Shown here one piece after another: positions 1 to 64,000 of a stretch of 64,000 nucleotides of DNA. Both the position numbers and the translations under genes were made by a program. The stretch lies in assembly GCF_029392895.1 (NCBI RefSeq), contig NZ_CP114200.1, positions 186,001 through 250,000 of the forward strand, given 5' to 3'. A model generated the notes under the pieces. It saw only the letters and a program-made list of their open reading frames with translations. It was not told the DNA's origin and made no database searches. The stretch is from Streptomyces sp. 71268 (GTDB taxonomy: Bacteria; Actinomycetota; Actinomycetes; Streptomycetales; Streptomycetaceae). How positions within the stretch are numbered: position 1 is the first letter of the stretch; each line of letters starts with the position of its first letter.

Positions 1-1
1 C

Positions 2-2353: not shown

Positions 2354-2528
2354 CGCCGTACGCCATGCCGGCCCGGGCCCGGTCCGCGCGAGGGGGCACG
2401 GACCGCCGCCGCCCGGGTGCGCGCGGTCCACGGCGGACCGCCGCCGGCCACGAGTTCTCCGGCACGCTCACCGCCGTCGGCGCCGCCGACGGCCGCGTAC
2501 CGAAGCCCCAACGAGACGGGAGAAAGTG

Positions 2529-7240: not shown

Positions 7241-7275
7241 GGCCCTGTCGCCTAGCAGGCGGCCCTGTCGCCTAG
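7241..7275. repeat. 20-bp-period tandem duplication at the P450 stop codon
   Basis: GGCCCTGTCGCCTAG occurs at 7241-7255 and again at 7261-7275. The second copy contains the P450 stop codon (7272-7274, minus strand), so the end of the gene was duplicated into its own 3' untranslated region. Confidence 0.7.
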
Positions 7276-10716: not shown

Positions 10717-10748
10717 CTTACTGGCGCACCGTAGGCGGACCCTCTGAT

Positions 10749-10766
10749 GTGAGTCAAGTGACTCGC
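10749..10766. promoter_or_regulatory. TetR operator candidate 2 (near-perfect palindrome)
   Basis: GTGAGTC-AAGT-GACTCGC: same design as site 1 with one arm mismatch. The centre-to-centre distance is 50 bp. It lies 26 bp before the tetR ATG, so binding would block tetR itself. Confidence 0.6.
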
Positions 10767-10791
10767 CTCGGAGCTACGGCATACTCTTCGC

Positions 10792-12462: not shown

Positions 12463-15400
12463 CTACGCGCCCAACTCCTCGATGAGGGCGAACACCTCGT
12501 CGGCCGTGGCGTCGGTGAGGTCCTCGTCGGTCCCGCCCTGGGGCGCCGTGTCGGTCGTCGCGGCGGAGTACTTCCACAGCAGCGCCTGGAGCCGGTTCAC
12601 CAGACCCGTACGGCGCGGGTCGGCCGCGGGCAGCTCGGCGAGCGCGGCCTCCACCTCGTCGATGCGACCCAGAGCCGGGTGTGCCTGGTCCGCGCCGGAG
12701 GGCAGGAGTTGGGTGAGCAGGTACTCGGTCAGCGTGCTGGGAGTCGGGTAGTCGAAGACCAGCGTCGTGGACAGGGTGAGTCCCGTCGCGCCGCGCAGCC
12801 GGTTGCGTAGTTCCACGGCCGCGATGGAATCGAACCCCAGCTCCTTGAAGGGGCGGTCGGGGTCCACCGCGTCCTGTGACGGATAGTGCAGTACGGAGGC
12901 CACTTGGGCGCGTACGACCGTCAGCAGCCGTTCGGTGCGGTCCGGCGCGGGCAGGGCGGCCAACTCCTCTCGTAGGGCGGCCGCGCCGTCGCCCGGTGCG
13001 CCGGCGTCCGGTTCGCGGGCGGCGTCGAGCGCGCGCCGGGCCTGCGGCACGCCGTCGAGCAGCGGGCTCGGCCGAGCCATGGTGAACAGCGGCGCGAACC
13101 GGTCCCACGCGACGTCGGCCACGGCCAGGTGCGGGTCGTCGTGGTCGAGCAGCCGACCGAGGGCGGCCGTGGCGAGCCCGGGATCGAGTGGGGTCAGCCC
13201 CTGCCGGCGCAGCCGCTCCGTGTGCTGACCGAGTTCCGAGTCCGGCCCGGCAGCCGCCCCGGGCGCGGCAAGGTCCCAGAGTCCCCAGGTCACCGACGTC
13301 GCCCGACGACCCGCGGACCGGCGTTGCCGCGCGAGCGAGTCCAGGTGGGCGGCGGCCGCGGCGTAGGCGCCGTGGTCCTTGCTGCCCCAGGAGGCGGCCA
13401 CCGTGGAGAAGAACACCACCGTGTCCTCCGGGCCCAGGCCGCACAGCTCGTCCAGATGAGGCCCGTCGTCCACCAGGTTGGCGGCGACGGCCTCGGCGAG
13501 GTCAGCGGGCGAGAGGTCGGTCAGCGGCGCCAGCTCCCCGGTGACCGAGGTGTGGATGACCGTGCCGATCCGGGCACCCTCGTCGGCCAGGCGCGCCGCG
13601 AGGCGCGCGACGGCCGTCCGGTCGATCGGCGCACAGTCAGCCACCTCCAGAACGGCCCCGAGCGTGTCCAGTTCGGCCGTCAGCTCCGCGACACCGGCCG
13701 CTTCGGCTCCGCCTCGTCCCAGCAACAACACCCGCTCGGCACCGCGCTCGGCCGCCCAGCGGGCGGTGTACGCGGCGGGCCCGTCGGCGTCACCGGTGAT
13801 CAGCACGGTGCCACGAGGCTGCCAGGGCCGCTCCGGCTCTCGTTCGCCCAGCCCCGCCGACACGAGACGGCGCCCCCACACCCCGCCCCCGCGCAGCGCC
13901 ACCTGGTCCTCGCCGGACGCTCCGCCGAGAACGGCGCGCAGCGGGCCGGGGTCGACGTCATCCGGCGCGGGCGGCAGGTCCACGATCCCACCCCACAGCG
14001 CGGGGTGTTCCAACGCCGCCACCCGACCGAGCCCCCAGATCTGGGCCTGCGTGGGCGAGTCCACGCTCTCGTCGGCCGAGACGGCGACCGCGCCACGGGT
14101 GGCACACCACAGGGGGCTCCGCACCTCGGCGTCGACCAGCGCCTGCACCAGCGCGAGCGTCCCGGCGACGCCGTCGACCAGGCCCTCGTGATCAGCGTGC
14201 GGGTGTTCGTCGAGCCCGAGGAGCGAGAGAACACGGGTCGGCGCGGTGGCCTCGTCCGCGTACGTGTCCCGCAGCGCGGCGGCCAGCTCAGCACGCCCGT
14301 AGGACTCCCCCACCACCAGCCGGCGCACCCGGTCACCGCCTGCCCCCAACGTACGGATGCACAGCTCGACCCACTCGTCAGCGGCCCCCGACGGGCACAC
14401 CACGAGCCACGATTCGGCCGATTCCGACAGCGTCCCGAGGTCGGTACGCCGATGCCACTCCACCCGGTACCGCCAGCCGTCCGCGATCGACCGCTCACGC
14501 CCCGCCTGCCGCCACGCCGACAACAGCGGCAACACCGCGCCGAGCGAGGCGCGCGCACCCTCACCGGCCGCGCCCCCACCATCGCCAACCCGCAGCGTCT
14601 CCGCGAGCGCCCCCAGATCCTGCTGCTCAACAGCGCCCCAGAACGCGGCTTCGCCCTCCTGACCGCTGGGAGCGGCAAGATCGGGCAGCATGTCGGGGAG
14701 CCAGTAGCGCTGTCGTTGGAAGGCGTAGGTGGGGAGGTCCACGACGTGGGGTGTGGGGTTGCTGGGGTACCAGCGGGTCCAGTCCACGTTCACACCGGCG
14801 GTGAAGGCTTGTGCTACGGACTGTGCCAACTGCTCCAATCCGCCGTGTTCGCGGCGGAGGGTGGGTACGGCGGCGGCTTCGATCCCGGCTTCGTCGAAGG
14901 CTTCTTGGAGTCCGACGGTCAGGACGGGGTGGGTGCTGGCTTCGATGAAGACGCGGTGGCCGTCGGCCAGGAGCTGGCGTACGGCATCGGCGAAGCGGAC
15001 TTGTTCGCGCAGGTTGGTGACCCAGTAGGCGGTGTCCAGGGTGGTGGTGTCGATACGTTCGGCAGTGACGGTGGAGTAGAACGCCACCTCGGCTCCGGTG
15101 GGCGTGATACCGGCCAACACCTCGTGCAGTTCGTCGGCGATCTCGTCGACTTGTGGGCTGTGTGAGGCGTAGTCCACGTCGATCAGCCGGGCCCGGCCGC
15201 CTGATGCCTCCAGAGCGGAGACGGCGTGTTGAACCTGCTCGGGCGGTCCGGAGACCACGGCGGAGCCGGGACCGTTGACGGCCGCGATGCCCACACCCGC
15301 CGCGCTCTCACCCAGCCCGGCCAGGAACTCCTCAGCCTTGTCCTGACTCAACGCCAGCGAGGCCATGGCGCCGCCGCTGGCAAGGCGGCGTAGTGCCTTG

Positions 15401-17475
15401 CTCCGCAGCGCCACCACCTTGGCGCCGTCCTCCAAGGACAGCGCGCCAGCGACGACAGCGGCCGCGATCTCACCCTGACTGTGCCCCACGACAGCGGCAG
15501 GCTTGACCCCCTGGTCCGCCCACACGGCGGCCAACGACACCATCACTGCCCACAGCACCGGCTGGACCACATCAACCCGGCCCAGGTCAGCGGCGTCCAC
15601 CCCGCCGCGCAGCACCTCGGCAAGCGACCAGTCCACGTACGGCGCCAGCGCCCGCTCGCACTCTGCCACCCGTGCCGCGAACACCGGCGAGGACTCCAAC
15701 AACCCCGCGCCCATGCCCACCCACTGTGACCCTTGCCCGGGGAAGACCAGGACGGGGCCGAGGTCGGTGGGGAGTGTGGGGGTGCCGGGGTTGGTGAGGG
15801 TGGGGTGGGTGGTGTCGGTGGCCAGTGCGTGGAGGCCCGCGAGGAGTTCGTCGTGGTTTTGGGCGGTGAGGACGACTCGGTGGTCGAAGGTGGTGCGGGT
15901 GGTGGTCAGGGACCAGCCGATGTCGGTGATCGAGGCGGCCGGAACAGCCGTCGCCAGGTGCTCGATCAACGCCTGGGCCTGACCACGCAACGCGGCGTGA
16001 CTGCGAGCCGACAGCACCCACGGGACATAGCTGCCCGTAGCCGTCACGGCCTCGGGCGCGGCGGGCGCCGACTCCTCGACGGGCACCTCCGGCGCCTGCT
16101 CCAGGATCACGTGCGCGTTCGTACCCGAGATGCCGAAGGAGGAGATCCCCGCCCTGCGGGGGCGTTCGCCGCTGGGCCAGGTGACCGGCTCGGTGAGCAG
16201 GCGTACGGCGCCGGCCTCCCAGTCCACGTGCGGGGTGGGGCGGCCGACGTGCAGGGTCGCGGGGAGCGTCTCACGTTGCAGCGCCATGATCATCTTGATG
16301 ACGCCGCCCACGCCTGCGGCGGCCTGGGTGTGGCCGATGTTGGACTTGATGGAACCCAGCCACAGCGGCTGGTCGTCGGGCCGGTCCTGGCCGTAGGTCG
16401 CGAGCAGCGCCTGTGCCTCGATCGGGTCACCCAACGAGGTGCCGGTGCCGTGCGCCTCCACGGCGTCCACCTGGTCGGGGGCGAGGCGCGCGTTCTCCAG
16501 CGCCTGCCTGATCACCCGCTCCTGGGCCGCGTCGTTGGGGGCGGTGAGGCCGTTGCTGGCGCCGTCCTGGTTGATGGCCGAGCCACGGATGACGGCGAGC
16601 ACGCGATGGCCGTTGCGCCTGGCGTCCGAGAGGCGTTCCAGGAGCACCAGGCCGACGCCCTCGGAGAAGCCGGTGCCGTCGGCGGAGGCCGCGAAGGACT
16701 TGCACCGGCCGTCGGGGGCCAGGCCGCGCTGGCGGGAGAACTCCGCGTAGGCGGTCGGGGTGGTGAGCGAGGTGACGCCGCCGGCCAACGCCATCGCGCA
16801 CTCGCCCTGGCGCAGGGCCTGGGCCGCCAGGTGCATGGCCACCAAGGACGACGAGCAGGCCGTGTCCACGGTCACCGCGGGCCCCTCGAACCCGAAGGTG
16901 TACGCGACGCGTCCCGAGATCACGCTGGTGAGGCTGCCGGTGGTCGCGTACCCCTCGAAGCCCTCGGGAATGCGCGGGGTGCGCGACAGGTAGTCCTGGC
17001 TGGACACTCCCGCGTACACGCCGGTGGCCGAGCCCCTGAGCTGGGCGGGGTCGAGGCCGGCCCGTTCGAGGAGTTCCCAGGCGACTTCGAGGAGCAGGCG
17101 CTGTTGTGGGTCCATGGCCAGCGCCTCGCGCGGGCTGATCCCGAAGAACTCCGCGTCGAACCGGTCGGCTCCGTCGAGGAAGCCACCGTCGCGCACGTAG
17201 CTGGTCCCGGGGTGGTCCGGGTCCGGGTGGTACAGACTCTCCAGGTCCCAGCCGCGGTCGGTGGGGAACGGCGTGATGGCGTCGGTGCCCGAGGCGACGA
17301 GGTTCCACAGGTCCTCGGGGCCTCGCACGCCGCCCGGGTAGCGGCAGGCCATGCCGACGACGGCCACCGGCTCCTGGGACCGCTCCGTCACCTCGCGCAG
17401 CCGCTGGCGCGCCTGGCCGAGGTCCACCGTGACCCGCTTCAGATACTGGCGGAGCTTCTCTTCGGTGTCCGACAT
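12463..17475 (-). CDS. Type I PKS, one module: KS-AT(mm)-KR(dead)-ACP (MonAVI/NigAVI-type position)
   Basis: 1670 residues. N-terminal docking coil ([15 protein letters not shown]); KS about 34-460 with Cys in VDTACSSS (~204); AT about 560-870 with GHSQGE (~662) and YASHS (~768), the methylmalonyl signature; KR-like region about 1220-1400; ACP about 1510-1590 with Ser in GFDSIAAVE (~1547); C-terminal docking tail ending [11 protein letters not shown]. There is no DH, ER or TE. The KR lacks function: the cofactor loop reads TGDADGPAA, Ser is Thr (FFSTVAA), the Asn after Tyr is Ala (YAAAAAH), and the catalytic Lys is not found. The module therefore leaves a beta-ketone, which corresponds to the spiroketal carbon in nigericin/monensin-type polyethers. 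It starts 16 bp after the preceding PKS stop. The tail implies a further PKS partner not present here. Confidence 0.93.
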
Positions 17476-17491
17476 CAGTTCTCGCTCCTGA

Positions 17492-20400
17492 TCAGGAAGG
17501 CAGTTCGCGGTCGATGAGGGCGAACAGCTCGTCGTCCGACGCCGCGTCGACCGCGGTGCTGTCCGCGCTCTCCGTGTCGGGCGTGTCGTGGTCCGGCCCG
17601 CTGTCGTTGAGGCGCCACAGCAGCGTCTCCAGCCGCTTGGTGAGCTTGCCGCGCGCGTCGCCGCCGGCGTCGATCCGGGTCATCGCCGCCTCCAACCTCT
17701 CCAACTCCTCGAAGAGGGGCGCCGCCGGGTCGGCCGCCGCGGGGCAGAGTTGTTCGCGCAGTTCCTCGGCGATGGCCGCCGGGGTGGGGTAGGTGAAGAT
17801 GAAGGTGGCGGGCAGCCGCAGCCCGGTGGCGGCCGAGAGCCGGTTACGCAGTTCGACGGCGGTCAGCGAGTCGAACCCGAGGTCCTTGAACGGGGCGTCG
17901 CTGTGCACCGCGTTGGGGTCGGCGTGGCCGAGGACGGCCGCCGCGTTGCCGCGTACGAGGTTGAGCAGCGTGCGCTGCTGCTCCTCGGGGGGCAGCACGG
18001 CGAGTTGGCTGGCCCAGTGGGTGGCCGCCGCCTGGTCGGTGGCCGCGCCGCGGCGCGCGGTGGCGGTGCTGACCAGTGCTCGGAGCTGCGCGGGTAGGGC
18101 GTCGGCGGGTTGCGCGCCCAGCGCGCGCAGGTCCAGGTGGGCGGCGGCGAGTTGGGCGTGGCCGTGCCGGCAGGCGGCGTCCAGCAGGCGCAGAGCGTGT
18201 TCGTTCGGCATGGCCTTGATGCCCGAGCGACTCATCCGGGCCAGGTCCGCCGCGTCGAGGTGGCCGGTCATGCCGCTCGCGTCGGCCCACAGGCCCCAGG
18301 CGATGGACACGCCGGGCAGGCCGAGCGCACGGCGGTGGGCGGCCAGGGCGTCGCAGAAGGCGTTGGCCGCCGCGTAGTTCGACTGTCCCGGGCTGCCGAG
18401 GGTGGCGGCCGCGGAGGAGAAGAGGACGAACATCCCGAGCCGCAGGTCCTTCGTCGCGGCGTGCAGGTGGGCCGCGGCGCTGGCCTTGGCCGCCCACACG
18501 GGCGCCAGCCGCTCAGCGGACTGGGAGGTGACCACGGCGTCGTCGAGTACACCCGCGGCGTGGACGACGCCGGTGAGCGGGTGCGCGGGGTCGATGCCCG
18601 CGACCAGGTCGGCGACGGCGGCCCCGTCGGTGACATCGGCCGCGACGACGCGCGCGTCGGCCCCCGCGTCGGCCAGTCGTGCCAGCAGTTCGTCCGCGCC
18701 GGGTGCCTTTGCGCCACGCCGGCTGACCAGCACCAGGTGCCGTACGCCCCAGGTGCGTGCGAGGTGTTCGGCGACGTGGCCGCCGAGGGCGCCGGTGCCG
18801 CCGGTGATCAGGACCGTGCCGTTCGCGTCCACCGTGCCGGGCACGTCGAGGACGAGCTTGCCGGTGTGCTTGGCCTGGCTGAGGTGGCGCAGCGCCTGCC
18901 GGGCCCGGGCCAGCGGCCAGCTCCGTACGGGTGGCGGTTGCAGCGTGCCGGCGCGGAACATCTCCCGCAGGGTGGCGAGCATCTCGCCGATCCGGTCGGC
19001 CCCGGCATGGGTGATCAGGTCGTACGCCTGGTAGCTGACGCCCGGGTAGACGGTGGCCAGGTGGTCGGCGTCCCGGATGTCGGTCTTGCCCATCTCCAGG
19101 AACCGGCCGCCCTTGCCGAGCAGGCGCATCGAGGCGTCCACGAACGGGCCGGAGAGGCTGTTGAGGACGACGTCCACACCACGGCCTCCGGTCGCCTCCC
19201 GGATCGCCGCCTCGAAGTCCAGGTCCCGGGAGTTGGCCCGGTGTGCCTGGTCGATGCCCAACTCGCCGAGGACGGGGTGCTTGCCCGGGCTGGCCGTGGC
19301 GTACACCTCGGCGCCCAGGTGGCGGGCGATCTGGACGGCGGCTGTGCCGACGCCGCCGGTGGCCGCGTGGATGAGCACCCGCTCGCCCTCCCGTACGCGG
19401 CCGAGTTCGACGAGCCCGTACCAGGCGGTGAGGTAGGCGATCGGTACGGCTGCGGCCTGCTGGTCGGTCCAACCCTCGGGGACGGGGGTGACGAGCCGGG
19501 CGTCGGTCTGTGTGATCGGCCCGAAGGCGCGGTCGAGGACACCCATCACCCGGTCGCCGACGGACACCGTGCTCACTCCGGGCCCCACCGCCACGACGGT
19601 GCCCGCTCCCTCGCCGCCGAGCCCGCTCTGCCCGGGCACCATGCCGAGGCTGACGACCACGTCCCGGAAGTTGACGCCCGCCGCACGCACCTGGACCCGG
19701 ATCTGCCCCTCGGCGAGCGGCTCCATGACCTCCGGGCACGGCACGGGGGCGACGCCTTCGAGGGTGCCGCTGCCGTCGGTGTCCAGACGCCAGGCGGAGC
19801 GCCCGTCCGGGCCGACCACGCCGCCGACCTCGGTCCCGCCGCGCACCAACCGGGGGACGAGGAGTTGGCCGCCGCGCAGCGCCACCTGCGTCTCCGTCGC
19901 GCCGATCGCCCGTGGTACGCCGGTCGCGAGACCCGGGTGAGCGGCGTCGGTCGCGGCGTCCGGGTCGAGGTCGAACAGGAGGAAGCGGTCGGGGTTCTCG
20001 GACTCCGCGCTCCGCAGCAGACCCCACACGCCGGCTCCGGTTAGCTCCACCGTGCCGTCCTCACCCTCGCCGGCCGCGACCGCGCCCCGGGTGACGACCA
20101 CCAGCCGGCTCGCGGCCAGCCTCGGTTCGGCCAGCCAGCTTCGTACCAGATCGAGCACGTACTCGACGGCGCGCCGGCCGGTGTCCGCCAACCCTTCGCC
20201 CGCCGTGTTTCCTTCGCCGGCGACCGTGGGTGACACGCCGACGCACGCGACGGCGGGCACCGCGGCTCCGGTGTCCAGCGCTTCGACCAGCGCGGACACG
20301 CTGGCGTACGACTCGGGGTTCGCGCCGCCCGGAAGCTCCAACCCGCCGAGGTGGAACGGGTCCTGGCCGAGCACGGCCCAGCCACCCGCGTCGTCCGCCG

Positions 20401-23400
20401 CCTCACCAGCGTTGCCGACGACAGGCTGGGGCAGCGGGGTCCAGTCGAGCGCGAACAGTCCGTCCACCCCACGACCGCCGGCGGCGCGCAACTGGTCGGG
20501 GGCGGCGGCACGCATCGCCACCGCGTCGACCGTGAGCACGGGCGCGCCCACGGCGTCGGCCACGGTGAGCCGCAGCGCTCGCTCGTCGTCGCCGCCTCGC
20601 GGCCCGGGAGAGATGCGGACCCGCACGCTGCCAGCCTGGGTGGCCCACAGCGACACGCCGTTCCACGCGAAGGGCAGCCATACGCGGTCCGCCCGGGAAG
20701 CCGACGACCGTGCCCCGGCCCCCGCGACGCCCTCGCCGGCGGCGTGGTCCGCACCGCTGGCCTCGGTGTCGGCGTCGGGGGCAGCGGCCTCGGCACCGGC
20801 CTGGTCGACCAGGAGCGCCGGGTGCAGCGCCGCGTCGAGGAGGGCGGGGTGGATGCCGTACCCGTCCCGCTCCCCCGCCGCCTCCGGCAACTCCACCTCG
20901 GCGTACACGTCCTCGCCCTGCCGCCACACGGCGCGCAACCCCTGGAACGCCGGGCCGTAGCCGTACCCCTCGGCGGCGGCCCGCGCGTAGAACCCGGCGA
21001 CGTCCACGGCCTCGGCCCCCGCCGGGGGCCAGGTGCCCAACAGGCCGGCAGGCTGCTCGGCCGCACCGGACGGCGGGCTCAACACACCCTCCGCGTGACA
21101 CACCCAGGTGGCGTCCGCACCGGGCTCGTCCTCGGGGCGCGAGTGGATCTGGACGTCCCGCGAACCGTCAGCCGCGGGCGCCCCGACAACCACCTGGACG
21201 CGCAGCGCCCCGGAGGACGGAAGTTCCAACGGCACCTGGAGCGCCAACTCCTCCACGCCCGCGCAGCCGGCTTCGTCGGCGGCCCGCAACGCCCACTCGG
21301 CCAAAGCCGCGCCCGGCAACAACGCCGAGCCCGCCACCGCATGTTCGGCCAGCCAGCCCCGGCCGCTCCCCGCCGAAAGCCGCCCGGTCAGCAACAGCCC
21401 ACCGTCGGCCAGCTCCACGGCGGCCGGCAACAACGCGTGCGCGACCTGCTGCAACCCCGCGGCACCCACGTCACCGACACCGCTCTGTGAGACCAGCCAG
21501 TACGGCTCACGTTGGAAGGCGTAAGTGGGCAGGTCCACGGCGCGGGGCGCGGGGTTGTTGGGGTACCAGCGGGTCCAGTCCACGCTGACGCCGGCGGTGA
21601 ACGCCTGTGCCACGGACAGCGCCAACTGCTCCAACCCGCCGTGCTCGCGGCGAAGAGTCGGTACGGCGGCGGCTTCGACTCCGACCTCATCGAAGGCTTC
21701 CTGGAGCCCGACGGTCAGGACGGGGTGGGTGCTGGCCTCGATGAAGACACGGTGGCCGTCGGCCAGGAGTTGGCGTACGGCATCCGCGAAACGGACCTGC
21801 TCGCGCAGGTTGGTCACCCAGTAGGCGGTGTCCAGGGTGGTGGTGTCGATGCGCTGGGCGGTGACGGTGGAGTAGAACGCCACCTCGGCTCCGGTGGGCG
21901 TGATACCCGCCAACACCTCGTGCAGCTCGTCAGCGATCTCGTCAACTTGTGAACTGTGGGAGGCGTAGTCCACGTCAATCAGGCGAGCCCGGCCGCCTGA
22001 CGCCTCCAGCGCGGAAACGGCGTGTTGAACCTGCCCAGGAGGCCCGGAGACCACCGCCGACCCCGGCCCGTTGACGGCCGCGATGCCTACGCCCACCGCC
22101 TCGTCGCCGAGGCCAGCCAGGAACTCTTCGGCCTTGTCCTGACTCAGCGCGAGCGAGGCCATGGCGCCACCACCGGCAAGCCGGCGCAACGCCTTGCTCC
22201 GCAGCGCCACCACCTTCGCGCCATCCTCCAACGACAGCGCACCAGCGACCACAGCAGCCGCGATCTCACCCTGACTGTGACCCACCACAGCGGCAGGCTT
22301 CACACCCTGATCAGCCCACACCGCAGCCAACGACACCATCACCGCCCACAACACCGGCTGCACCACATCAACCCGACCCAGGTCAGCCGCGCCCACACCA
22401 CCCCGCAACACCTCGGCAAGCGACCACTCCACGTACGGCGCCAGTGCCCGCTCACACTCGGCCACCCGCGCCGCGAACACCGCAGACGACTCCAACAACC
22501 CCGCACCCATCCCCACCCACTGCGAACCCTGCCCCGGGAAGACCAACACCGGGCCGTCACCATCGAGCCCCGGAGCCGCGTCCGTTGTCACCACACCCGG
22601 ATGCGCCTCGCCCGCCCCCAAGGCCAACAACCCCGCCTGGAGCGACTCCCGATCGTGTCCCACCACCACCGCACGCCGCTCGAACAACGAGCGCGTCCTC
22701 ACCAACGACCAACCCACGTCGCCCAACGACAACCCGGGCCGGCTTTCCACCCATTCCGCCAGCGCCATCGCCTGTCCGCGCAACGCCTCGCCACCGCGTC
22801 CCGACAACACCCACGGCACCACGCCGCCCGGCTCGGACCCCGCAGGAGCCGCAGAGCCCGCCGTACCCTCGGAAGCCTCGGCGTTCTCGGAGACCTCCGG
22901 AGCCTGCTCAAGGATCACGTGCGCGTTCGTGCCCGAGGCGCCGAAGGAGGAGATGCCCGCTCGCCTGGGGCGGTCTTTCCGCGGCCATTCCACCGCTTCC
23001 GACAGCAGTCGTACCGCTCCCGCGTCCCAGTCCACATGGGGCGTCGGTTCGTCGATGTGCAGGGACTGAGGCAGTACGCCGTGGTGCATGGCCTGCACCA
23101 TCTTGATGACGCCCGCCACTCCCGCGGCGGCCTGCGTATGGCCGATGTTCGACTTCACCGAACCCAGCCACAGCGGGGCGTTCTCCTCGCGCTCCTGCCC
23201 GTACGTGGCGATCAGCGCCTGTGCCTCGATCGGGTCGCCCAGCCGCGTTCCCGTCCCGTGGCCCTCCACCGCGTCCACCTCGGCGGCACTGATCCCCGCG
23301 TTGGCCAACGCCTGCCGGATCACGCGCTGTTGCGAGGGCCCGTTGGGGGCCGTCATTCCGTTGGACGCGCCGTCCTGGTTCACGGCCGAGCCGCGTACCA

Positions 23401-26400
23401 GCGCGAGCACCCGATGTCCGTGGCGCCTGGCGTCCGAGAGCCGCTCAAGGAGCAGCACCCCCACGCCCTCGCCCCATCCGGTGCCGTCGGCCGCCGCCGC
23501 GAAGGGCTTGCAGCGCCCGTCCGGTGCCAGGCCGCGCTGTCGCGAGAATCCCGTGAACACGTCCGGGGTGGCCATCACCGTCACCCCGCCGGCCAGCGCC
23601 AACGTGCATTCGCCCGAGCGCAGTGCCTGTGCCGCCAGGTGCATGGCCACCAGCGACGAGGAGCACGCGGTGTCGACCGTCACCGCCGGGCCTTCCAGGC
23701 CCAGCGTGTACGCCACGCGGCCGGAGACGACGCTGCCCGAGCCGGCCAGCATCGCGTAACCCTCCAGTTTCGGGTCGCCACCGCGCGAAAGGCCCGCCGC
23801 GTAGTCGTGGTACATCACGCCCGCGTACACGCCCGTCGCCGTGCCCCGCAGCGAGACCGGGTCGATTCCGGCCCGTTCCAGCGCCTCCCACGACGCCTCC
23901 AGCAACAGTCGTTGCTGCGGATCCGTCGCCAGCGCCTCGCGTGGGTTGACGCCGAAGAACCCCGCGTCGAACTGGTCCGCGTCGTACAGGAAAGCCCCCT
24001 CACGCGCGTAGCTCGTCCCCGAGTGGTCCGGGTCCGCGTGGAAGAGGCCGTCCACGTCCCAGCCTCGCGTGGTGGGGAACTCGCCCAGCACCGCCCGCCC
24101 GCTGGCCACCAGGTCCCACAGGCCCTCCGGCGATACGGCGCCCCCGGGGAACCGGCAGGCCATGCCGACGATCGCCACCGGCTCGTCCGCTCCCACACCC
24201 ACCGAGGCCCGCTGCGAGGTGCGCGCGGCGCCCGCGCCCGCGTCGCCGCTCCAGCGTGACAGTACGTAGGCCGCCAGCAGGCGCGGTGTCGGGTAGTCGA
24301 AGACCAGTGTCGCCGGCAGTCGTAGACCGCTCACCGTCGACAGGCGGTTCCGCAGTTCCACCGCCGTCAGCGAGTCGAAGCCCAGCTCCTTGAACGCGGA
24401 GTCGGGTCGCACATCGGCGGCCGAGGGGAAGCCGAGCACGGCGGCCACGCTGCCGCGCACGACGTCGAGGACCTCGGCCTGCCGCCCGTCCGCGTCCAGG
24501 CCGGACAGCCGCGCCGTCAGGCCCGCCGCGCCCGAGGCGTCGGCGTCGGCCGCCCTGCGCCGCGTGCGGCCGGCGAGGCCGCGCAGCACGGGCGGCAGGT
24601 CGGTGGCGCCGGCGAGGCCGAGTACGTCGAGGTCGACGGCGACGAGCAGGGGTCGCGGTGACCGGCGGGCGGCGTCCAGGAGGCTGAGGCCGCGCTCGGC
24701 CGTGAGCGGGCGCATGCCGCGTAGTCGGGCCAGCTCGGCCTGGCCCATGTGGCCGGTCATCTCGCTGGCCTGTTCCCACAGGCCCCAGGCCACCGACTGC
24801 CCCGGGAGGCCGAGGCCGCGCCGGTGGGCGACCAGGGCGTCGACGAACGCGTTGGCCGCCGCGTAGCCGGCCTGGCCCGCGTTGCCCACGACGCCGGCGG
24901 CCGAGGAGAACATGAGGAACACGCGCAGGTCCAGGCCTGCCGTAGCGGCGTGCAGGTGCGCCGCGACGGTGGCCTTGGCCGCCCAGGCCCGCGCCACCTG
25001 CTCCGCCGTCTGGGAGGTCACAACGCCGTCGTCCAGCACGCCTGCCGCGTGCACCACGCCCGTGAGCGGGTGTTCCGGGTCGATGCCCGCGACGAGTTCG
25101 CCGGCTGCCTCCGCGTTCGTGACGTCCGCGGCGACGACGCGCACCCGGGCGCCGGCCGCGCCGAGCCGCTCGACGAGTTCGGCGGCCCCCGGCGCTTCCG
25201 GGCCGCGCCTGCTGGCCAGTACCAGGTGCCTGACCTGCCACGTCCGTACGAGGTGTGTCGCCACCAGGGCGCCCAGCATGCCGGTGCCACCCACGATGAG
25301 CACCGTGCCGTCCGGGTCGAGCGCGCCCGTCTCGCCCTCCTGGCCCGGTGCGCCCGACTGGCTGTCGGGTGTGGTGGCCGGGGCCCGTACGAGCCGGGGC
25401 ACCAGCGCGCGCTCGTCCCGGAGCGCCACCTGCGACTCGTCGGCCGCGAGGGCCGCCAGCACCCCGGCCGTCAGTCCGCCGGACGGCGGCTGGGCCGCCG
25501 CGTCGAGGTCCAGCAGGAGGAAGCGTCCCGGGTTCTCCGACTCGGCGCTGCGGACCAGGCCCCACACGCCGGCGCCCGGCACCGCCACGTCCGCGCCTTC
25601 GGTGGCCACCGCGCCGCGCGTCACGACCACCAGCCGCGAGGAGGCCAACCGCTCCTGTGCCAACCAGTCCCGCACCACGCCCAACACGCCCACGGTCGCG
25701 CTCAGGCCAGCCTCCGCCAGCCCCGCGCCCTCGCCGTCGGGGGGCGCGACGCCCAGCAACACCACCGGCGGCACCTCGCCGTCCTCGCCCACCGCCTCCA
25801 GTAGCGCGTCCACATCGGCGAAGACACGCCTCGAACCCGGCAACTCTTCGGCCAGGTTCCACACGTCCGCACCCAGCACCGCCCAGTCGGCCGCTTCCGC
25901 GGCCTCACCGCTGCCCGGCGTGGTGCCGGTCAGCGGTGCCCACTCCACCGCGTACAGTCCGGCCGCCCCGCTTCCGGCGGCCTTGAGCTGCTCTGCGGAG
26001 GCGGGACGCATGGTGACGGCATCGGCCGTGAGCACCGGGGCGCCGACGGCGTCGGCCACCGTGACCTGGAGCGAGCGCTCTCCGCTGGTGGCGGCCTGGT
26101 CTGCGGAGACGCGGACGCGGACGGAGCCGGCCTCGGCGGCCCACAGCGCGACGCCACTCCAGGCGAAGGGCAGCCACACCTGTTCCGCGTCGGACGCCGC
26201 AATGGGCTCCTCGGTCAGCAGCGCCGGGTGGAGGGCGGCGTCGAGCAGCGCGGGGTGGATGCCGAACCCTTCACGGTCTCCGGCGGCCTGGGGGAGTTCG
26301 AGTTCGGCGTAGACGTGGGAGCCGTGCCGCCAGGCGGCCTTGAGCCCCTGGAAGGCCGGACCGTACCCGTATCCCGCCTCCGTGGCCCGCTCGTAGAACC

Positions 26401-29400: not shown

Positions 29401-29698
29401 AGAGGAACCCGCCCTGGGTGACGTAGCTGGTGCCCGGGTGGTCCGGGTCCGGGTGGTACAGGCCGTCCAGGTCCCAGCCCCGGTCGGTGGGGAAGTCGCC
29501 GATCGCGTCGGTGCGGGAGGTGACCAGTTCCCACAACTGCTCGGGCGAGGCGACGCCGCCCGGGAACCGGCAGGCCATGCTGACCACGGCCACCGGCTCC
29601 TGGGAGCGCTCCTCCACCTCGCGCAGGCGCAGCCGCGTTTCGTGCAGGTCCTTGGAGACGCGCTTGAGATACTCGACCAGCTTCTCTTCGTTCACCAT
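17492..29698 (-). CDS. Type I PKS, two modules: KS-AT(mm)-DH-KR-ACP, KS-AT(mm)-DH-ER-KR-ACP (MonAV/NigAV-type position)
   Basis: 4068 residues from ATG 29698 ([16 protein letters not shown] upstream). Module A: KS Cys ~201 (VETACSSS), AT GHSQGE ~668 and YASHS ~775 (methylmalonyl), DH His in [10 protein letters not shown] ~981 and Asp in LLDAALH ~1153, KR TGGTG-type loop read as VGGTGMLG ~1466 with LDD (B-type), Tyr ~1611, ACP Ser ~1771. It makes a trisubstituted alkene. Module B: KS Cys ~2012, AT ~2471 (methylmalonyl), DH His ~2786 and Asp ~2955, ER with LGMVPG ~3352 and HAATGGVG ~3445, KR ~3632 with Tyr ~3774, ACP Ser ~3942; it makes a saturated methyl-branched unit. All KR residues (Lys, Ser, Tyr, Asn) are present. 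Val in GMVPG predicts 2R methyl. C-terminal tail [12 protein letters not shown] pairs with the MSDTEEKL coil of the next protein. Confidence 0.95.
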
Positions 29699-29739
29699 GA
29701 GGTATCTCCCGGCCTGAGCGATGGTGTGGTCCCGTGCAT

Positions 29740-41820
<12,081 letters not shown>

Positions 41821-41837
41821 CAGTTCTTGCTCCTCCA

Positions 41838-47800: not shown

Positions 47801-50800
47801 GCTTGCAGCGGCCGTCGGCGGCCAGGCCGCGCTGCCGGGAGAACTCGACGAAGGTGTTGGGGGTGGCCATGACGGTGACGCCGCCGGCAAGGGCCAGGGT
47901 GCACTCACCCTGGCGCAGCGCCTGGGCGGCCAGGTGCATGGCCACAAGCGAGGACGAGCAGGCGGTGTCCACGGTCAGCGCCGGGCCTTCGAGGCCGAAG
48001 GTGAAGGCGACGCGCCCGGAGGCGATGCTCGGGGTGCTGCCGGTCATCAGCCGCCCCTCGACGCCCTCGGGGGTGCGGCCGAGGAAGCGGCTGCCGTAGT
48101 CGTCGTACATCACGCCGGTGATGACCGCGCACCGGCTGCCGCGCACGCTGGCGGGGTCGATGCCGGCGGACTCGAAGGTCTGCCAGGCGGTCTCCAGGAG
48201 CAGCCGTTGCTGGGGGTCGGTGGCGACGGCCTCGCGCGGGCTGATGCCGAAGAACGCGGCGTCGAAGCGGTCGGCGTCGTGCAGGAAGCCGCCCTCGCTG
48301 GCGTAGCTGGTGCCGACGTGGTCGGGGTCGGGGTCGAAGAGTTCGCCCAGTGGCCAGCCACGGCCGGTGGGGAAGGCGCCGATGGCGTCGGTGCCGGAGG
48401 AGACCAGGTCCCACAGGTCGTCGGGCGAGCCGACGCCGCCCGGGTACTGGCAGGCCATGCCGACGATGACGATCGGGTCGTCGTCGGTGGCGGCCGGCGC
48501 CGGGGCGGGGGTCTGGCGTCGCGGGGCCGCGCCGATGAGTTCGTCGCGCAGGTGGCGGACGAGGGCGTCGGGGGTCGGGTAGTCGAAGATGACGGTGGCC
48601 GGGACCCGGATTCCGGTGCTGGCGCTGAGCCGGTTGCGCAGGTCGAGCGCGGTGAGCGAGTCGAAGCCCAGGTCCTGGAAGGCCCGGCCGAGGTCGATGG
48701 TCTCCGGCGCGGGGTGCGCGATGACCGTGCCGACCTGCTCCCGTACCAGGTCGGCGACCGCGGCCTCCTGTTCGGCCGGCGGCATCCCGGCCAGACGGGT
48801 GCTCCAGGCGGCGGTGTCGGCCGGCGCCTGCCCGACGCGGGGCGCGGCCGGCACCAGGCGGCGCAGCGCGGGCGGCAGCGGTCCGGCGTGGGCCTGGGCG
48901 CGCAGTACGGCCAGGTCGAAGCGGGCGGGGAGCACGGTGGCGTACGGAGCGGCGAGCCCCGCGTCGAACAGGGCGAGCGCCTGGTCCGGGGGGACGGGGG
49001 CGACGCCGGAGCGGGTCATGCGGGCCAGGTCGGCGTCGCTGAGGTGGTCGGTCATGCCGCCGGAGTGGCCCCACAGGCCCCAGGCGAGGGAGGTGGCGGC
49101 CCGGCCCTGGGCGCGGCGGTGTTCGGCGAGCGCGTTCAGGAACGCGTTGGCCGCCGCGTAGTTGGCCTGGCCGGCGCTGCGGACCAGGGAGGCGGCGGAG
49201 GAGAAGACGGCGAAGACGGCGAGGTCCAGCTCGCGGGTGAGCTGGTGCAGGTGCCAGGCGGCGTCCAGCTTGGGGGCGAGTACGGCGTCGAGCCTGGCGG
49301 AGGTCAGGGCGCTGACCACACCGTCGTCCAGGACGCCGGCGGTGTGGATGACGCCGGTCAGCGGATGGGCCGGCGGGATGGCGTCGAGCAGGGCCGCCAG
49401 GGCTCGCGGGTCGCTGGTGTCGCAGGCGGCGATGGTGATCTGGGCCGGGTGCCCGGCCCGCTCGGCGAGGTCGGTCAGCTCGGCGGCGAGTTCGGCGGCG
49501 CCGGGGGCTTCCCGGCCGGCCCGGCTGACCAGCAGGAGGTGCCGGGCCCGGTGGGTGGTGAGCAGGTGCCGGGCGATCTGGCGGCCGAGCGCGCCGGTGC
49601 CGCCGGTGATGAGTACGGTGCCCAGCGGGTCGAGCGCCGGCGCGGTGGCCTGCGGGTCGGGCCGGAACCTGGCCAGTCGCGGCACGCACGACGTGCCGGT
49701 GCGCAGGGCGAGTTCCTCCTCGTCGCCCGCCAGTGCGGTGGCCACGGCGGCGGGCAGCGCCCGCTGGGACGCTGGGCTGTCATCGATGTCGAGCAGCAGG
49801 ACGCGGCCGGGGTGTTCGGCCTGCGCGGAGCGGGCCAGGCCCCACAGCGCGGCGCCGGCCAGGTCGGCGGGCGGTTCGCTGGCGTCGGTGCTGACCGCGC
49901 CACGGGTGACGATGGCGAGCCGGGTGGCGGCCAGCGCGTCGTCGGCGAGCCAGCCCTGGAGGTCGGCGAGCAGGCGGTGGGCGCTGTCACGCACCTGGGT
50001 GGGTACGTCGTCGCCGTCGGCCCGGTCGAGGGTGGCGAGCACGATCGTGGCCGGGGCGGCGGCGCCGGCGGCGACGGCGGCGCGCAGCTCGGCCAGGTCG
50101 CGGTAGGTGCTGACGCTGGCCGCGCCGGCCGCGCCGGGCAGGCCGAGGTCGGTCGCTCCGACGACGGCCCAGCGGCCGGTCGCCTCGCCTTGGTCGGCGG
50201 CCGGTGCGTGGGCCTGCCAGTCGAGTCGGTAGAGCGTGTCGTCGACGGCGGCGCGGTGGGCCCGCCACTGCTCGGCGGGGATCTCCCGCACGCCGAGGTG
50301 GCGCACGGTGGCGACGGGGGCGCCGCCGGTGTCGGTCAGCTCCAGGCTGACCTGGTCGGCGGCGGTCTGGGTGATGCGTACCCGCAGCCGGGTGGCGCCG
50401 GCTGCGTGCAGTCGTACGCCGCCGAAGGTGAAGGGCAGGCGCACGGTGCGCGGCGACTGCTCCTGGGTGGGGTCGGTGGTCTGGTCCCGGTCGGTGCCCC
50501 ACAGCTCTTCCAGCGGGTGCAGCACGCTGTCCAGGAGGGCGGGGTGCAGTCCGTACCCGGTGGCGTCGGCGCGCTGCCCGGTGCTCAGGCGCACGTCGGC
50601 GACGATGTCGTCACCGTCCCGCCAGGCCGCGTGCAGGCCACGGAACGCGGGCCCGTAGGCGTAACCCTGGTCGGTCAGGCGGGCGTACAGGCCGGCCACG
50701 TCGATGGGTTCGGCGCCGGTGGGTGGCCACGGCTCGGCCGGGCTGGTGCCGGTCGGCGCGGGGTGGGTCGGGGTGGCGCTGGCCGCGTCGGCGATGAGGC

Positions 50801-53800
50801 CGGCGGCGTGCTGGTGCCAGGAGCCGGGGCCGCTGCCGCCGGTGGCGTCGTCGTCGGCCGGCCGGGAGTGGATGGTGACCGTGCGGCGCCCGGTGGCGTC
50901 CGGGGCGCCGACGGCGAGTTGGACCTGCACCGCACCGGTGGCGGGCAGGATCAGCGGCGACTCCAGGGTGAGGTCCTCGACCAGGTCACAGCCCGCCTGC
51001 GCGGCGGCCAGCAGGGCCAGTTCGAGGAAGGCGGTGCCTGGCAGGGGGACCGTGTCCTGGATGGCGTGGTCGGCCAGCCAGGGGTGGGTGTGCAGGGAGA
51101 GCCGCCCGGTGAGCAGGAGGCCGCCGTCGGCGGGCTCGACCAGGGCGCCGAGCAGGGGGTGCGCGGTGCTACCGAGGCCGGCGGCGCGCACGTCACCGGT
51201 GGCGGCGGGCGTCGGCCGCCAGTAGCGCTGCCGCTGGAAGCGGTAGGTGGGCAGGGGCACCGTGCGGCCACCGCCGGGCACGGTGGCGCCGAAGTCGACG
51301 GTGGCGCCGTCGATGTGGGTGTGGGCGAGCGCGGTGAGCAGGGTGCGCGGCTCGTCGCGGCCCTTGCGCAGCACGGCGGCGAACGCGGGCTCGCCCTGGC
51401 CCGCCTCGCCGTCGATGGCGGCCCGGGCCATGGTGCCGAGGACGGCGTCGGGGCCCAGTTCGAGGTAGCGGACGACGCCCTCGCCCTGGAGGGTGCGCAG
51501 GCCGTCATGGAACCGTACGGGCTCGCGCACGTGGCGCACCCAGTAATCGGGGTCGGTCAGGTGCTGGGCGCCGACGAGTTCCCCGGTCAGGTTGGAGATC
51601 ACCGGGATCTGCGGGGCGTGGTACGTCAGGCCGCTGGCGACCGCGCGGAAGTCGGCGAGCATCGGGTCCAGGCGGGGCGAGTGGAAGGCGTGGCTGACGC
51701 GCAGCCGCTTGGTCTTGTGGCCCCGCTCGCGCAGCGTTTCGGCGATCTCGTGGACGACCTCCAGATCGCCGGAGACGACGACGGCGGTGGGGCCGTTGAC
51801 CGCGGCCAGCGCGGCCCGGTCGGTGCGCCCGGCGAGCAGTTCGCTCACCTGCTCCTCGGTGGCCTCGACGGCGATCATCGCGCCGCCGGCCGGCAGCGCC
51901 TGCATCAGCCGTCCCCTGGCGGCGACCAGGGTGCAGGCGTCGGCCAGCGACAGAACGCCCGCGACGTGCGCGGCGACCAGCTCGCCCACGGAGTGCCCGG
52001 TGAGGTAGTCGGGGGTGACGCCGAAGGAGGTGACGAGCCGGTACAGCGCGGTTTCCAGGGTGAACAGGGCCGCCTGGGTGATGCCCGTCTGGTGCAGGGG
52101 GTGGTCCTGGGTGTCGTCGCCCTCGGGGCCGGCGGGTGTCTCGTCGGCGAACAGGGCGGCGCGCAGCGGCCGGTCGAGCAGCGGGTCGAAGTGGGCGCAC
52201 GCCTCGTCGACGGCGGCGGCGAACACCGGGTAGCGGTCGTAGAGTTCGCGTCCCATGCCCGGGTACTGGCTTCCCTGCCCGGTGAACAGGAAGGCGGTTC
52301 CACCGGGCCGCGCGGGTGACTCCGCTCGGAGCAGGCCGGGGTGTGGGCGGCCGTCGGCGAGCGCGTGCAGGGCCTCGGTGAGCTGCTCGCGGTGTACGTC
52401 GATGAGCACGGCCCGGTGCTCGAAGGCGGAGCGGGTGGTGGCCAGCGACCAGCCGATGTCGGACGCGGACAGGTCGGGGTGGGCGGCGAGGTGGTCGGCC
52501 AGCGCCCGGGCCTGGTCGCGCAGGGCTTGTTCGGTGCGGCCGGAGAGCGTCCAGGCCAGCGGGGTGCCCTCGGGCCGGGGCGCGGTGGGGGCGGCCGGGG
52601 GTTCGGCGGGCTCGGCGGCGGGTGGCTGTTCCAGGATCAGGTGGGCGTTGGTGCCCGAGATGCCGAAGGAGGAGACGGCCGCCCGGCGCGGGCGTTCGCC
52701 ACGCGGCCACGGCACGGGCTCGGTGAGCAGGCGTACGGCGTCGCCGGACCAGTCCACGTGCGGCGTGGGCGCGTCGACGTGCAGGGTGCGGGGAAGCTCC
52801 TCGTGTCGCATCGCCATGATCATCTTGATGACGCCGGCGGCGCCGGCCGCGCCCTGGGTGTGTCCGATGTTGGACTTGACCGAGCCCAGCCACAGGGGCC
52901 GGTCAGCGGGGCGGTCGGGCCCGTAGGTGGTGAGCAGGGCGTGGGCCTCGATGGGGTCGCCGAGGCGGGTGCCGGTGCCGTGCGCCTCCACCGCGTCGAT
53001 GTCCTCCGGAGCCAGCCTGGCGTTGGTCAGCGCCTGGCTGATGACGCGCTGCTGGGACGGCCCGTTGGGGGCGGTGAGCCCGTTGCTCGCCCCGTCCTGG
53101 TTGACGGCGGAGCCGCGGATGACGGCGAGCACCTCGTGCCCGTTGCGCCGGGCGTCCGAGAGCCGCTCAAGGAGCACCAGACCCACGCCCTCGGAGAACG
53201 CGGTGCCGTCGGCGGCGGCGGCGAACGCCTTGCAGCGGCTGTCGGCGGCCAGGCCGCGCTGCCGGGCGAACTCGGTGAACACGTTGGGGATGCTCATCAC
53301 CGTGACGCCGCCGGCCAGCGCGAGGGCGCACTCGCCCTGTCGCAGCGCCTGCGCCGCCAAGTGCATGGCCACCAACGACGAGGAACAGGCGGTGTCCACC
53401 GTCACCGCGGGACCTTCGAGGCCCAGCGTGTAGGCGACCCGCCCGGACAGCACGCTCGGCGCGTTGCCGGTGACGAGGTAGCCCTCGGCGTCCTTCTCGA
53501 TGTGCGGGGTGCCGAAGCCGGGCAGGGCGACGCCCGCGTACACGCCGGTGGGTGAGCCCTTCAGCGTCTGCGGGTCGATGCCGGCCCGCTCGAACAGCTC
53601 CCACGTCGTTTCCAGCAGCAGCCGCTGCTGCGGGTCGATGGCGAGGGCCTCGCGCGGGCTGATGCCGAAGAACTCCGGGTCGAACGCGGCCGCGTCGTAG
53701 AGGAATCCGCCCTGCCTGGCGTAGCTCGTGCCGGCGTGGTCCGGGTCCGGGTGGAAGAGGCCGTCCAGGTCCCAGCCACGGTCGGTGGGGAAATCCCCGA

Positions 53801-53996
53801 TCGCGTTCTCCGCGGCGTGCACGAGGCGCCACAGGTCCTCCGGTGACGCGACCCCGCCCGGATAGCGGCAGGCCATGCTGACCACGGCCACCGGCTCCTG
53901 GGACCGCTCCTCCACCTCGCGCAGGCGAGTGCGCGTGCTGTGCAGGTCACTGGTCACCCGGCGCAGGTAGTCGACCAGCTTCTCTTCATTCACCAC
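41838..53996 (-). CDS. Type I PKS, two modules: KS-AT(mal)-DH-KR-ACP, KS-AT(mm)-DH-ER-KR-ACP (MonAIII/NigAIII-type position)
   Basis: 4052 residues from GTG 53996 ([11 protein letters not shown]). Module A: KS Cys ~205, AT GHSVGE ~664 with HAFHSP ~768 (malonyl), DH His ~977 in [10 protein letters not shown] (Asp replaces the usual Gly) and Asp in LLDSVLH ~1156, [10 protein letters not shown] ~1462 with LDD, Tyr ~1612, ACP Ser ~1780; product a disubstituted alkene. From AT to ACP this module is clearly diverged from all others here. Module B: KS Cys ~2014, AT GHSQGE ~2473 and YASHS ~2580 (methylmalonyl), DH His ~2789 and Asp ~2953, ER LGMYPG ~3330 and HAATGGVG ~3428, KR ~3612, Tyr ~3754, ACP Ser ~3926; product a saturated methyl branch, predicted 2S from the Tyr. 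The tail [11 protein letters not shown] pairs with the MSDTEDKL coil of the next protein 17 bp downstream. Confidence 0.95.
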
Positions 53997-54038
53997 GGAG
54001 GGTCACCCGGCTTTCAGCGATATGCGCGCCCAAGTAAT

Positions 54039-60743
<6,705 letters not shown>

Positions 60744-60784
60744 GGGAGTCACCCGGCCTTCGGCGATGGTGGCGTCCGGCGCAT

Positions 60785-63700
60785 TCAGGACACCCCGAGT
60801 TCGTTGTGGATAAAGTCGAGAACCTGGTCCGCGGACGCGGATTCCAGTCGTTGCGCGGCGCTGCCTTCGCTTGCCGGCTTGTGTTCCGCCTTGAGCCGGG
60901 TCAGCAGGCTTTCCAGTCGGGACAGCACGGCGCCGGCGTCGCTGTCCGCCAGCGCCGCGTTGGTCAGGGTGTTCTCCAGCCGGGTGAGGTCGGTGAGCGC
61001 CAGTTCGGCGGTGCCGTGCGCCGGGGGTTGTGTCTCGTCGGGCACGATCCGCTGGAGCAGGTGCGTGGCGATGCCCTCCGGTGTCGGGTGGCGGAAGATG
61101 AGGGCGGCCGGCAGGCGCAGCCCGGTGGCGGCGGCGAGTCGGTTGCGCAGTTCCACGGCCGTGAACGAGTCGAAGCCGAGGTCCTTGAAGCTCGCGTCCA
61201 CCTGGACCGCGTCGGCGTCGGCGTGCCCGAGCACCGTGGCCGCGTGCCCCCGGACCAGGGTCAGCAGGGTTCGGTGGCGCTCGTCGGCGGAGAGTCCGGC
61301 GAGCTGTGCCACCCAGTCCACCGGCCGTCCCGCACCGGCCTCGGCCGCGCTGCGCCGTCCGCGTACGCCGACCGTGAGCAGGCCGCGCAGGGCGGCCGGC
61401 ACCGTGTCGACGGGGAGTGCCGCCAGTGCGCGGGGGTCGATGGCCGCGGCCACCAGGTGGCTGCCGCCGTGGCGGCGGGAGGCGTCCCAGAGGGTGAGCG
61501 CCTGCTCGGTGGGGAGCGCCTCGATGCCGGAACGCGGCGCTGGCGCGGCCCCGTCCGCGGCCCAGGGCCCCCAGGCCACCGCGAGGCCGGGCAGGCCGAG
61601 CGTGCGCCGGTGGGTCGCCAGCGCGGCGCCGTACGCGTCGGCCGCCGCGTCCTCGGGTCGCCCGGCGACGCCGAGGGTGCCGGCGGCCGACGCGAACGTC
61701 GCGAACAGCGTGAGGGGCAACCCGGCGGTGGCCGCGTGCAGGTGCGCGACGGCGCCGGCCCGGGTGGCCCACAACCGGGCCAGGTGTCCGGTGGCGTCCA
61801 CGGTGCCCTCACCAGCGGACGTGGGCCCGTCCGTGGCCGTCCGCGCCGCCGGGTGACCGCCCGAGGTGTGGATGACGGCGGTGAGCGGGTGTTTGGGGTC
61901 GACAGCGGCGACGAGCGCGGCCACCGCCTCGGGGTCGGCGAGGTCGGCGGACGCGAACCGTGGCGTGGCGCCCAACGCGTCGAGCCGGTCCGCGAGTTCG
62001 CCCGTCCCGTCGTCGCCCGCGCCGGGTGGACTGACGAGCAGGAGGTGCTTGGCCTGTCCCGTACGTGCCAGGTGCTCGGCGATCAGCTCGCCCAGCGGCC
62101 CGTCGCCGCCGGTGACCAGGACGGTGCCGTCCGAGTCGAGCGCGTCGGTCCCGTCGGTGGCTGGTTCGGCGGGGGCGGTGGCCCGGGTGAGGCGCGGTGC
62201 CAGCACCCGGCCGGCCCGTACCGCGAGCCGAGGCTCGTCGAACTCGCCGGCCCGCAGCGCCACCGAGGGCAGTACGGCGGTGTCCTCGTCGGTGTCGAGC
62301 AGCAGCAGCCGCCCCGGGTGCGCGGCCTGGAGGGCGCCGACCAGCCCCCATGCGGTGGCGCCGGCCAGGTCGCGGACGGGTTCGCCGTCGTCGGTGGCCA
62401 CGGCGCCACGGGTGATGACGACGAGCCGGCTGTCGGCCAGGGTGGGGCGGGCCAGCCAGTCGCGCACCTGGCGCGACAGGTTCTCGGCGAGGCGCAGCGC
62501 GTCGGCCTGGGTGTCGGTCGGTGTGTCGCTACCGAGTGCCTGGGTCAGCACGGTCGCGGGTACGGGCGCGCCGTCGGCGGCCGATGCCACCAGCGTCGCC
62601 ACGTCGGGGTGGCGGGTGGGGCCGTGCGGGCCGCCGGTGCCGGGCTCGGTCAGGCCGAGCCGGTCGTCGCCGAGCAGTGCCCAGTCCGCGTCGGCGGGCG
62701 TGTCGGTCCCGCGCGCCGTGGCGAGTTGGGCCCAGTCCAGCGTGAACAGGCCCTCCACGCCCCGGCTGGCCACGGCGCGCAGGTGGTTCCCGTCGGCGGG
62801 GCGGGTCACCAGCGCGTCGGCGGTAAGCACGGGCGCGCCGGTTCCGTCGGTGACCGTGACGCGCAGCGCCCGCTCCCCCTCCGCCACGTCCTGACGCGGG
62901 CTGAGCCGGACCCGGACGCTGCGCGCCTCACCGGCCCACAGCGTCACCCCGGTCCAACTGAACGGCATCCACACCCGCCCGTCGATGTCCTCGTCCGCCG
63001 TGGGGGTGGGGACCAGGCGCGCGGGCTGGAGCGCCGCGTCCAGCAGGGCCGGGTGGATGCCGTAACCCTCGTGGTCGCCCGCCGCCTTGGGCAGCGCGAC
63101 CTCGGCGAGCACCTCGTCCCCGTGTCGCCACAGGGCGCGCAGGCCCTGGAAGGCGGGCCCGTAGCCGTAGCCGTCGGCGGTGTTGTGGGCGGTGAACTCG
63201 GCCAGGTCCACGGGCTCGGCGGCGGGCGGCGGCCAGGCTCCGATCGGCTGGTCGGGCTCGGTGGCCTCGGTCCGCGGCGGAGCCAGTACGCCTTCCGCGT
63301 GGCACAGCCAGGGCAGGCTGGACGGTTGGGGCTCGTCGGCGCGTGAGTAGATCCGTACGTCGCGGCGGCCGTCGGCGGTGGCCTCGCCCACCACGACCTG
63401 GACGCGCAGCGCGCCCGTGGCGGGAAGCACCAGGGGCACCTGGAGGGCCAGTTCGTCCACGCCCGCGCCGCCCACCTCGTCGGCGGCGCGCAGCGCCCAC
63501 TCCAGCAGCACCGTGCCCGGCACCAGGGTGACGCCGGCCACCTCGTGCTCCGCGAGCCAGGCGTGGGTCCGCGTCGACAGCCGTCCGGTGAGCACGTGGG
63601 TGGTGCCGTCGGCGACCTCGACGGCGGCGCCGAGCAGCGGGTGTCCGGAGGTGGTGAGCCCGAGGTCGGCCGGGTTGCCGGCGCCTCCGCCGGCCGGGGC

Positions 63701-64000
63701 GAGCCAGTACCGCTCGCGTTGGAAGGCGTACGTCGGCAGGTCCACGACGCGGGGCGCGGGTTCGGCGGCGAACCACCGGGACCAGTCCACCGCGACTCCG
63801 GCGGCGAACGCCTGCGCCACCGACTGCGCCAACTGTGCCGGGCCGCCCTGCTCGCGCCGGAGCGTGGGCACGGTCACGGCCGCCACCGCCGCCTCGTCGA
63901 AGGACTCCTGCAATCCCACGGTGAGCACGGGGTGGGTGCTGGCCTCGATGAACACCCGGTGGCCCGCTTCGAGCAGCCGACGCACGGCGTCGGCGAAGCG
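60785..64000 (-). CDS. Type I PKS, 3' part of a module: AT(end)-DH-KR(dead)-ACP (MonAI/NigAI-type position)
   Basis: Partial: the 5' part lies beyond the right edge and the frame is open there. The visible ~1071 residues start in the AT C-terminus ([18 protein letters not shown]), whose sequence resembles the methylmalonyl ATs of the neighbours. DH motifs look intact ([17 protein letters not shown]). The KR (nt about 61500-62140) is dead: the Lys is Arg (WATRAGAV), Tyr is Asp and Asn is Asp ([10 protein letters not shown]), and the LDD motif is missing; the cofactor loop is TGGDGPLG. The ACP has Ser in GFDSFTAVE. The tail [13 protein letters not shown] matches the [11 protein letters not shown] coil of the next protein. 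With KR inactive the DH has no substrate, so a ketone remains; in nigericin/monensin this is the terminal hemiketal carbon. By analogy the missing part holds the loading module (KSQ-AT-ACP) and this module's KS. Confidence 0.93.

Follow-up and report, generated by a model that had tools for sequence, protein, structure and literature searches.

The window analysed here, a stretch of 64,000 nucleotides (bases 186001-250000) from a single-contig genome of 8,379,354 bases, is almost certainly the central part of the complete nigericin gene cluster of Streptomyces ID71268. Nigericin is a well-known ion-carrying antibiotic from soil Streptomyces. The ID71268 genome was published at 8,379,354 bp and placed close to S. 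buecherae, cultures of the strain were found by LC-MS to contain nigericin (known compounds being identified via LC-HRMS against standards or literature data), and antiSMASH region 1 (T1PKS, 134,524-321,356) was listed in Table 1 of that report at 100% similarity to nigericin, with nigericin as the observed metabolite (PMC10127220). The window falls within this region, and other polyketide synthase (PKS) matches of the genome, those at 1.435-1.528 Mb and 2.477-2.524 Mb, fall in regions 8 and 13 of the same report. The exact genome length and these agreeing cluster positions are the grounds for taking the genome to be that of ID71268. The sequence is apparently identical to that of the published cluster; no difference was found, and the modules are not described in the available part of the report. 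Strain, cluster and compound have thus already been published, and the nigericin cluster is already known. A nigericin-type polyether had been predicted from the sequence in a first-pass annotation, and this prediction is supported by the genes of the locus, by alignment, by the published antiSMASH region enclosing the window, and by the published product, nigericin and not another compound (PMC10127220, available part).

For reading of the cluster, Pfam scans, domain searches, and a gene finder run on 180 kb around the window were used; genes were called with a simple codon-usage script, giving approximate start codons, and in the first protein search scoring was limited to the 8000 candidates with the most words in common. 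The make-up of genes and modules, the active-site motifs, synteny and sequence relatedness were read directly; the order of steps, the carbon numbering (after the structure of nigericin) and the parts played by the individual tailoring enzymes are proposed. In the parts of the literature available to us, we know of no knock-out in Streptomyces ID71268.

Six PKS genes on the minus strand (Table 1) encode the loading module and extension modules M1-M9, and the 1-1-2-2-2-1 gene split previously claimed for 12463-64000 was found. The loading/M1 gene continues past the window to at least genome position 255514, and its start lies upstream of the called start. The loading module carries DAAQSS at the KS active site and a HAFH AT, and was accordingly classed as a KSQ-type, malonyl-selecting module (acetate starter). 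Alignment of the AT motifs of all modules gave YASH (methylmalonyl) in M1, M2, M4, M5, M7, M8, M9, M13 and M14, and HAFH (malonyl) in the loading module, M3, M6, M10, M11 and M12. DH, ER and KR were found together in M2, M4, M6, M8 and M13, DH and KR without ER in M3, M5, M7 and M14, and KR only in M10, M11 and M12, with dead KRs in M1 and M9. In the M9 KR both the NADPH motif and the catalytic Asn are lost and Thr occupies the Ser position, and the M1 KR is without the catalytic Tyr and Asn, bearing out the two dead-KR ketones of the first-pass annotation. Its AT and KR specificity assignments were upheld by alignment, including the methyl it had called likely at C18 (the M1 AT reads YASH), and the C1-C19 pattern of methyls, alkenes and ketones that it drew, in its own numbering, for the half made here is exact, judged from the AT motifs and reductive domains of M1-M9. 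The loading module, M10-M14 and most tailoring genes lay beyond its view. The DH motifs of M1 look intact despite the dead KR (in Streptomyces sp. S465 the M1 KR is no longer detected), and this DH would have nothing to act on because the M1 KR is dead.

Table 1. Features located in the window (position 1 is genome base 186001)
Feature	Position	Strand	Basis
KSX-like PKS protein, 3' part (genome 184151-188353)	1..2353	+	58-59% identical to syntenic S465 and S. violaceusniger genes
Discrete ACP, ACPX-like	2526..2882	+	Syntenic orthologues 71-76% identical
Cytochrome P450, NigD-like	7272..8531	-	Pfam PF00067; 82-83% identical to syntenic genes
Alpha/beta hydrolase, MonCII/NigCII-like	8954..9802	+	Pfam; 76% identical to syntenic genes; start codon uncertain
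M9: KS-AT(methylmalonyl)-KR(dead)-ACP, leaves C13 ketone	12463..17475	-	Domains, motifs
M7: KS-AT(methylmalonyl)-DH-KR-ACP; M8: KS-AT(methylmalonyl)-DH-ER-KR-ACP	17492..29698	-	Domains, motifs
M5: KS-AT(methylmalonyl)-DH-KR-ACP; M6: KS-AT(malonyl)-DH-ER-KR-ACP	29740..41838	-	Domains, motifs
M3: KS-AT(malonyl)-DH-KR-ACP; M4: KS-AT(methylmalonyl)-DH-ER-KR-ACP	41838..53996	-	Domains, motifs
M2: KS-AT(methylmalonyl)-DH-ER-KR-ACP	54039..60743	-	Domains, motifs
Loading module (KSQ-AT(malonyl)-ACP) and M1 (KS-AT(methylmalonyl)-DH-dead KR-ACP), 3' part	60785..64000	-	Domains, motifs

To the left of the window, genome 154453-181397 carries five further modules, M10-M14, on the plus strand, making 14 extension modules in all. 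Three of the five are malonyl modules with KR as the sole reductive domain, one is a methylmalonyl module that reduces fully, and one a methylmalonyl module with DH and KR; they are consistent with the other half of nigericin. From gene order and this fit, the plus-strand modules would act after M9, in the order g026, g027, g028. The nigericin methyls are at C28, 26, 22, 20, 16, 14, 12, 4 and 2, and the AT classes agree with these positions in 14 of 14 modules. The structure also needs ketones at C29 and C13, alkenes at C24=25, C20=21 and C16=17, hydroxyls at C11, C9 and C7, methylenes at C27, 23, 19, 15 and 5, and a C2=C3 alkene for oxa-Michael ring closure; against this pattern the reductive domains agree in all 14 modules and the KR motifs in 13, the exception being the M13 KR. 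Nine methylmalonyl and five malonyl ATs give 2 + 10 + 27 = 39 carbons, and 40 with one O-methyl, equal to the C40 of nigericin.

The genes for oxidative cyclisation lie at and beyond the left edge of the window, and include the polyether epoxidase and epoxide hydrolase genes expected in the rest of the locus, as a MonCI-type epoxidase and SnoaL-like proteins. The flavin monooxygenase runs from about genome 182640, with its start placed further upstream than called, and among solved structures its best match is MonCI (652 bits), ahead of LasC/Lsd18 (466 bits). Two SnoaL_2 proteins are encoded at genome 181394-182334, and the second, the one of the two searched against solved structures, matches MonBI/MonBII at up to 219 bits. 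The limonene-epoxide-hydrolase family PF07858 was also considered and gave no match in the genome, leaving the SnoaL_2 proteins as candidate epoxide hydrolases. MonCI acts on the ACP-bound chain, with MonB in the role of epoxide hydrolase (PMC10560226, available part). The KSX-like protein has a KS, a truncated AT without GHSxG, a dimerisation element and a degenerate KR, and no ACP was found in it by domain search; together with the discrete ACP it spans genome 184151-188882, and both are known from their genes, which have syntenic orthologues. The discrete ACP likely carries the chain during oxidative cyclisation. MonCII/NigCII-type enzymes release the chain, which is transferred to a discrete ACP (PMC4147253, available part), and by analogy the alpha/beta hydrolase is the predicted releasing thioesterase. 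The P450 is likely the C30 hydroxylase.

A monensin-type or other polyether made from the same gene split was weighed, as the first nine modules are divided like MonAI-MonAVI and the monensin cluster shares the MonCI-like epoxidase and a MonBI/MonBII-like protein, but it has 12 modules against the 14 found here, another AT pattern (methylmalonyl ATs in M8 and M9 and the YASH-type M5 AT of this locus stand against it) and another acid half. The published product contradicts a monensin-type compound as well (PMC10127220, available part), and we give this alternative practically no weight.

In the pathway proposed for nigericin, the loading KSQ would decarboxylate malonyl to the acetyl starter, and 14 modules would assemble a C30 chain carrying three alkenes (C24=C25, C20=C21, C16=C17) and two ketones (C13, C29). 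After transfer of the chain by the KSX to the discrete ACP, its alkenes would be epoxidised there by the MonCI-like enzyme, two MonB-like enzymes would open the epoxides to cyclic ethers, the NigCII-like hydrolase would release the acid, a methyltransferase would methylate the C11 oxygen, and the P450 would hydroxylate C30. A close congener from the same PKS (grisorixin, abierixin or epinigericin) as the end product is very improbable; the PKS reading is blind to nigericin versus its congeners, which differ in tailoring, but the P450 and methyltransferase genes are both present without internal stops. Nigericin itself, moreover, is reported in the strain (PMC10127220, available part).

The methyltransferase and a SARP regulator are encoded outside the window. 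The nig cluster of Streptomyces sp. DSM4137 (the work of Harvey in 2007) reportedly has nigAI-nigE and nigD-C as divergent pairs, together with a SARP regulator. These are likewise common to the nig cluster of S. malaysiensis F913, in which nigR disruption abolished nigericin and the NigR box CGWWWCCG lies in the nigD-C and nigAI-nigE intergenic regions (PMC9312159, available part); the divergent P450/hydrolase and PKS/methyltransferase pairs found here correspond to these two regions. The box was found in neither of the two matching intergenic regions as called (with the hydrolase start uncertain), and three boxes (genome 194971, 195139 and 195154) are located shortly after the called start of the hydrolase gene, which is itself uncertain. 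One box each was found in three of the seven intergenic regions tested, against 48 in the 180 kb overall, so that there is no enrichment.

Genome contigs were scanned with the epoxidase, giving 112 stretches with the pattern, 30 of them relatives, in a scan from which the strain's own genome was possibly left out. Epoxidase identity among the 30 loci was 98% in S. buecherae AC541, 88% in S. zagrosensis, 85% in S. himastatinicus, 81-83% in a group including S. violaceusniger, and at most 72% in Actinomadura and others. Gene-by-gene comparison showed that S465 and AC541 share the core (g026-g033, g039-g040, g044-g051), with gene order and orientation kept. S465 also shares all 14 AT classes, the dead M9 KR, and the domains apart from M1, where the KR difference described above lies, with PKS proteins 65-72% and the epoxidase 81% identical. 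The module pattern is conserved and not due to chance, because the 14 AT classes and the dead M9 KR recur in S465, which by synteny would also make nigericin. In S. violaceusniger NBRC 13459 the cluster is reversed, and its tailoring genes and cluster ends have counterparts at 67-89% identity; gene calls there are shorter (e.g. 1368 vs 4838 residues), and the six PKS genes share one best match.

Two parts of the window, 3440-7175 and 9885-12325, hold extra genes for which the compared stretches of S465 and S. violaceusniger have no counterpart. Those between the ACP and P450 genes encode a 198-residue protein, an MFS-transporter-like protein and an ArsR-like protein (the latter two scoring under the NCBIfam cut-offs), and a small protein that by eye is of the P-loop type; those between the hydrolase and M9 genes encode an SDR, a GNAT protein and a TetR regulator. 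In S. buecherae AC541, the stretch compared gave no match to the SDR/TetR pair or to the 198-residue protein. Judged by eye, a short minus-strand ORF at 11593-11829 looks like the beginning of a longer ORF at the same place on the minus strand of AC541, between its hydrolase and GNAT genes, and because of this resemblance part of an AC541-type ORF may have given way to the SDR/TetR pair. Beside the cluster, a further PKS gene (L009:12603 to L010:1344, genome 258603-267344, minus strand; 89% identical in AC541) encodes a KSQ-type loading module, with GASQG in place of GHSxG in its AT, and one KS-AT-DH-KR-ACP module, and adjoins two genes scoring under the NCBIfam cut-offs, one gentisate-dioxygenase-like and one 3-hydroxybenzoate-6-monooxygenase-like; in S465 and S. 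violaceusniger the stretches compared stop within 2.5 kb of the SARP genes, and so speak neither for nor against a counterpart there. Before M10 lie an M28-peptidase-like gene and a DUF1579 gene (L006:4414-5883 and L006:7361-8068), which may belong to the cluster because their counterparts (82% and 59% identity) adjoin the S465 cluster.

The one departure from the expected motifs, the M13 KR (L007:8281-8817), has Ala 13 residues before the Tyr, where the catalytic Ser would be expected. The Ala was present in 12 of 12 genomes where the position was readable, namely the strain's own and 11 loci (L012, L013, L014, L015, L016, L018, L019, L023, L025, L026 and L039) of the 16 considered (L012-L026 and L039); the stretches at L017, L020, L021, L022 and L024 do not reach the M13 KR and match best, at 57-60%, what seems to be the M14 KR. 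In a wider survey, from which stretches of less than 150 residues and identical sequences were dropped, 135 KRs were left and 113 were counted, the other 22 being unused (in 16 of them Gln/His stand in the Tyr/Asn columns, apparently through misregistration). The 113, a biased sample mostly from the nigericin cluster and its relatives, comprised 86 Ser-Tyr-Asn, 13 Ala-Tyr-Asn, and 14 distinct KRs with Thr-Tyr and without Asn, among them the M9 KR of this cluster. The 13 Ala KRs are 12 rows of M13 (L048 being a second AC541 stretch) and one KR from Phytohabitans suffuscus (L036). Since nigericin needs M13 to fully reduce C5, the M13 KR probably works without the Ser, or another reductase helps. 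That this KR is itself functional despite the Ala, and would so represent a conserved PKS KR with a changed proton relay, is a tentative reading that we hold to be rather doubtful. A narrow search of the open-access literature found no report of a Ser-to-Ala change in a nigericin KR, which says little.

The product predicted by reading modules by eye from raw sequence is thus real, and had been detected by others before. The biological addition is small, the cluster being the published one of the classic ionophore nigericin, and the conserved Ser-to-Ala change in the M13 KR provides a small testable point on which KR residues are needed.
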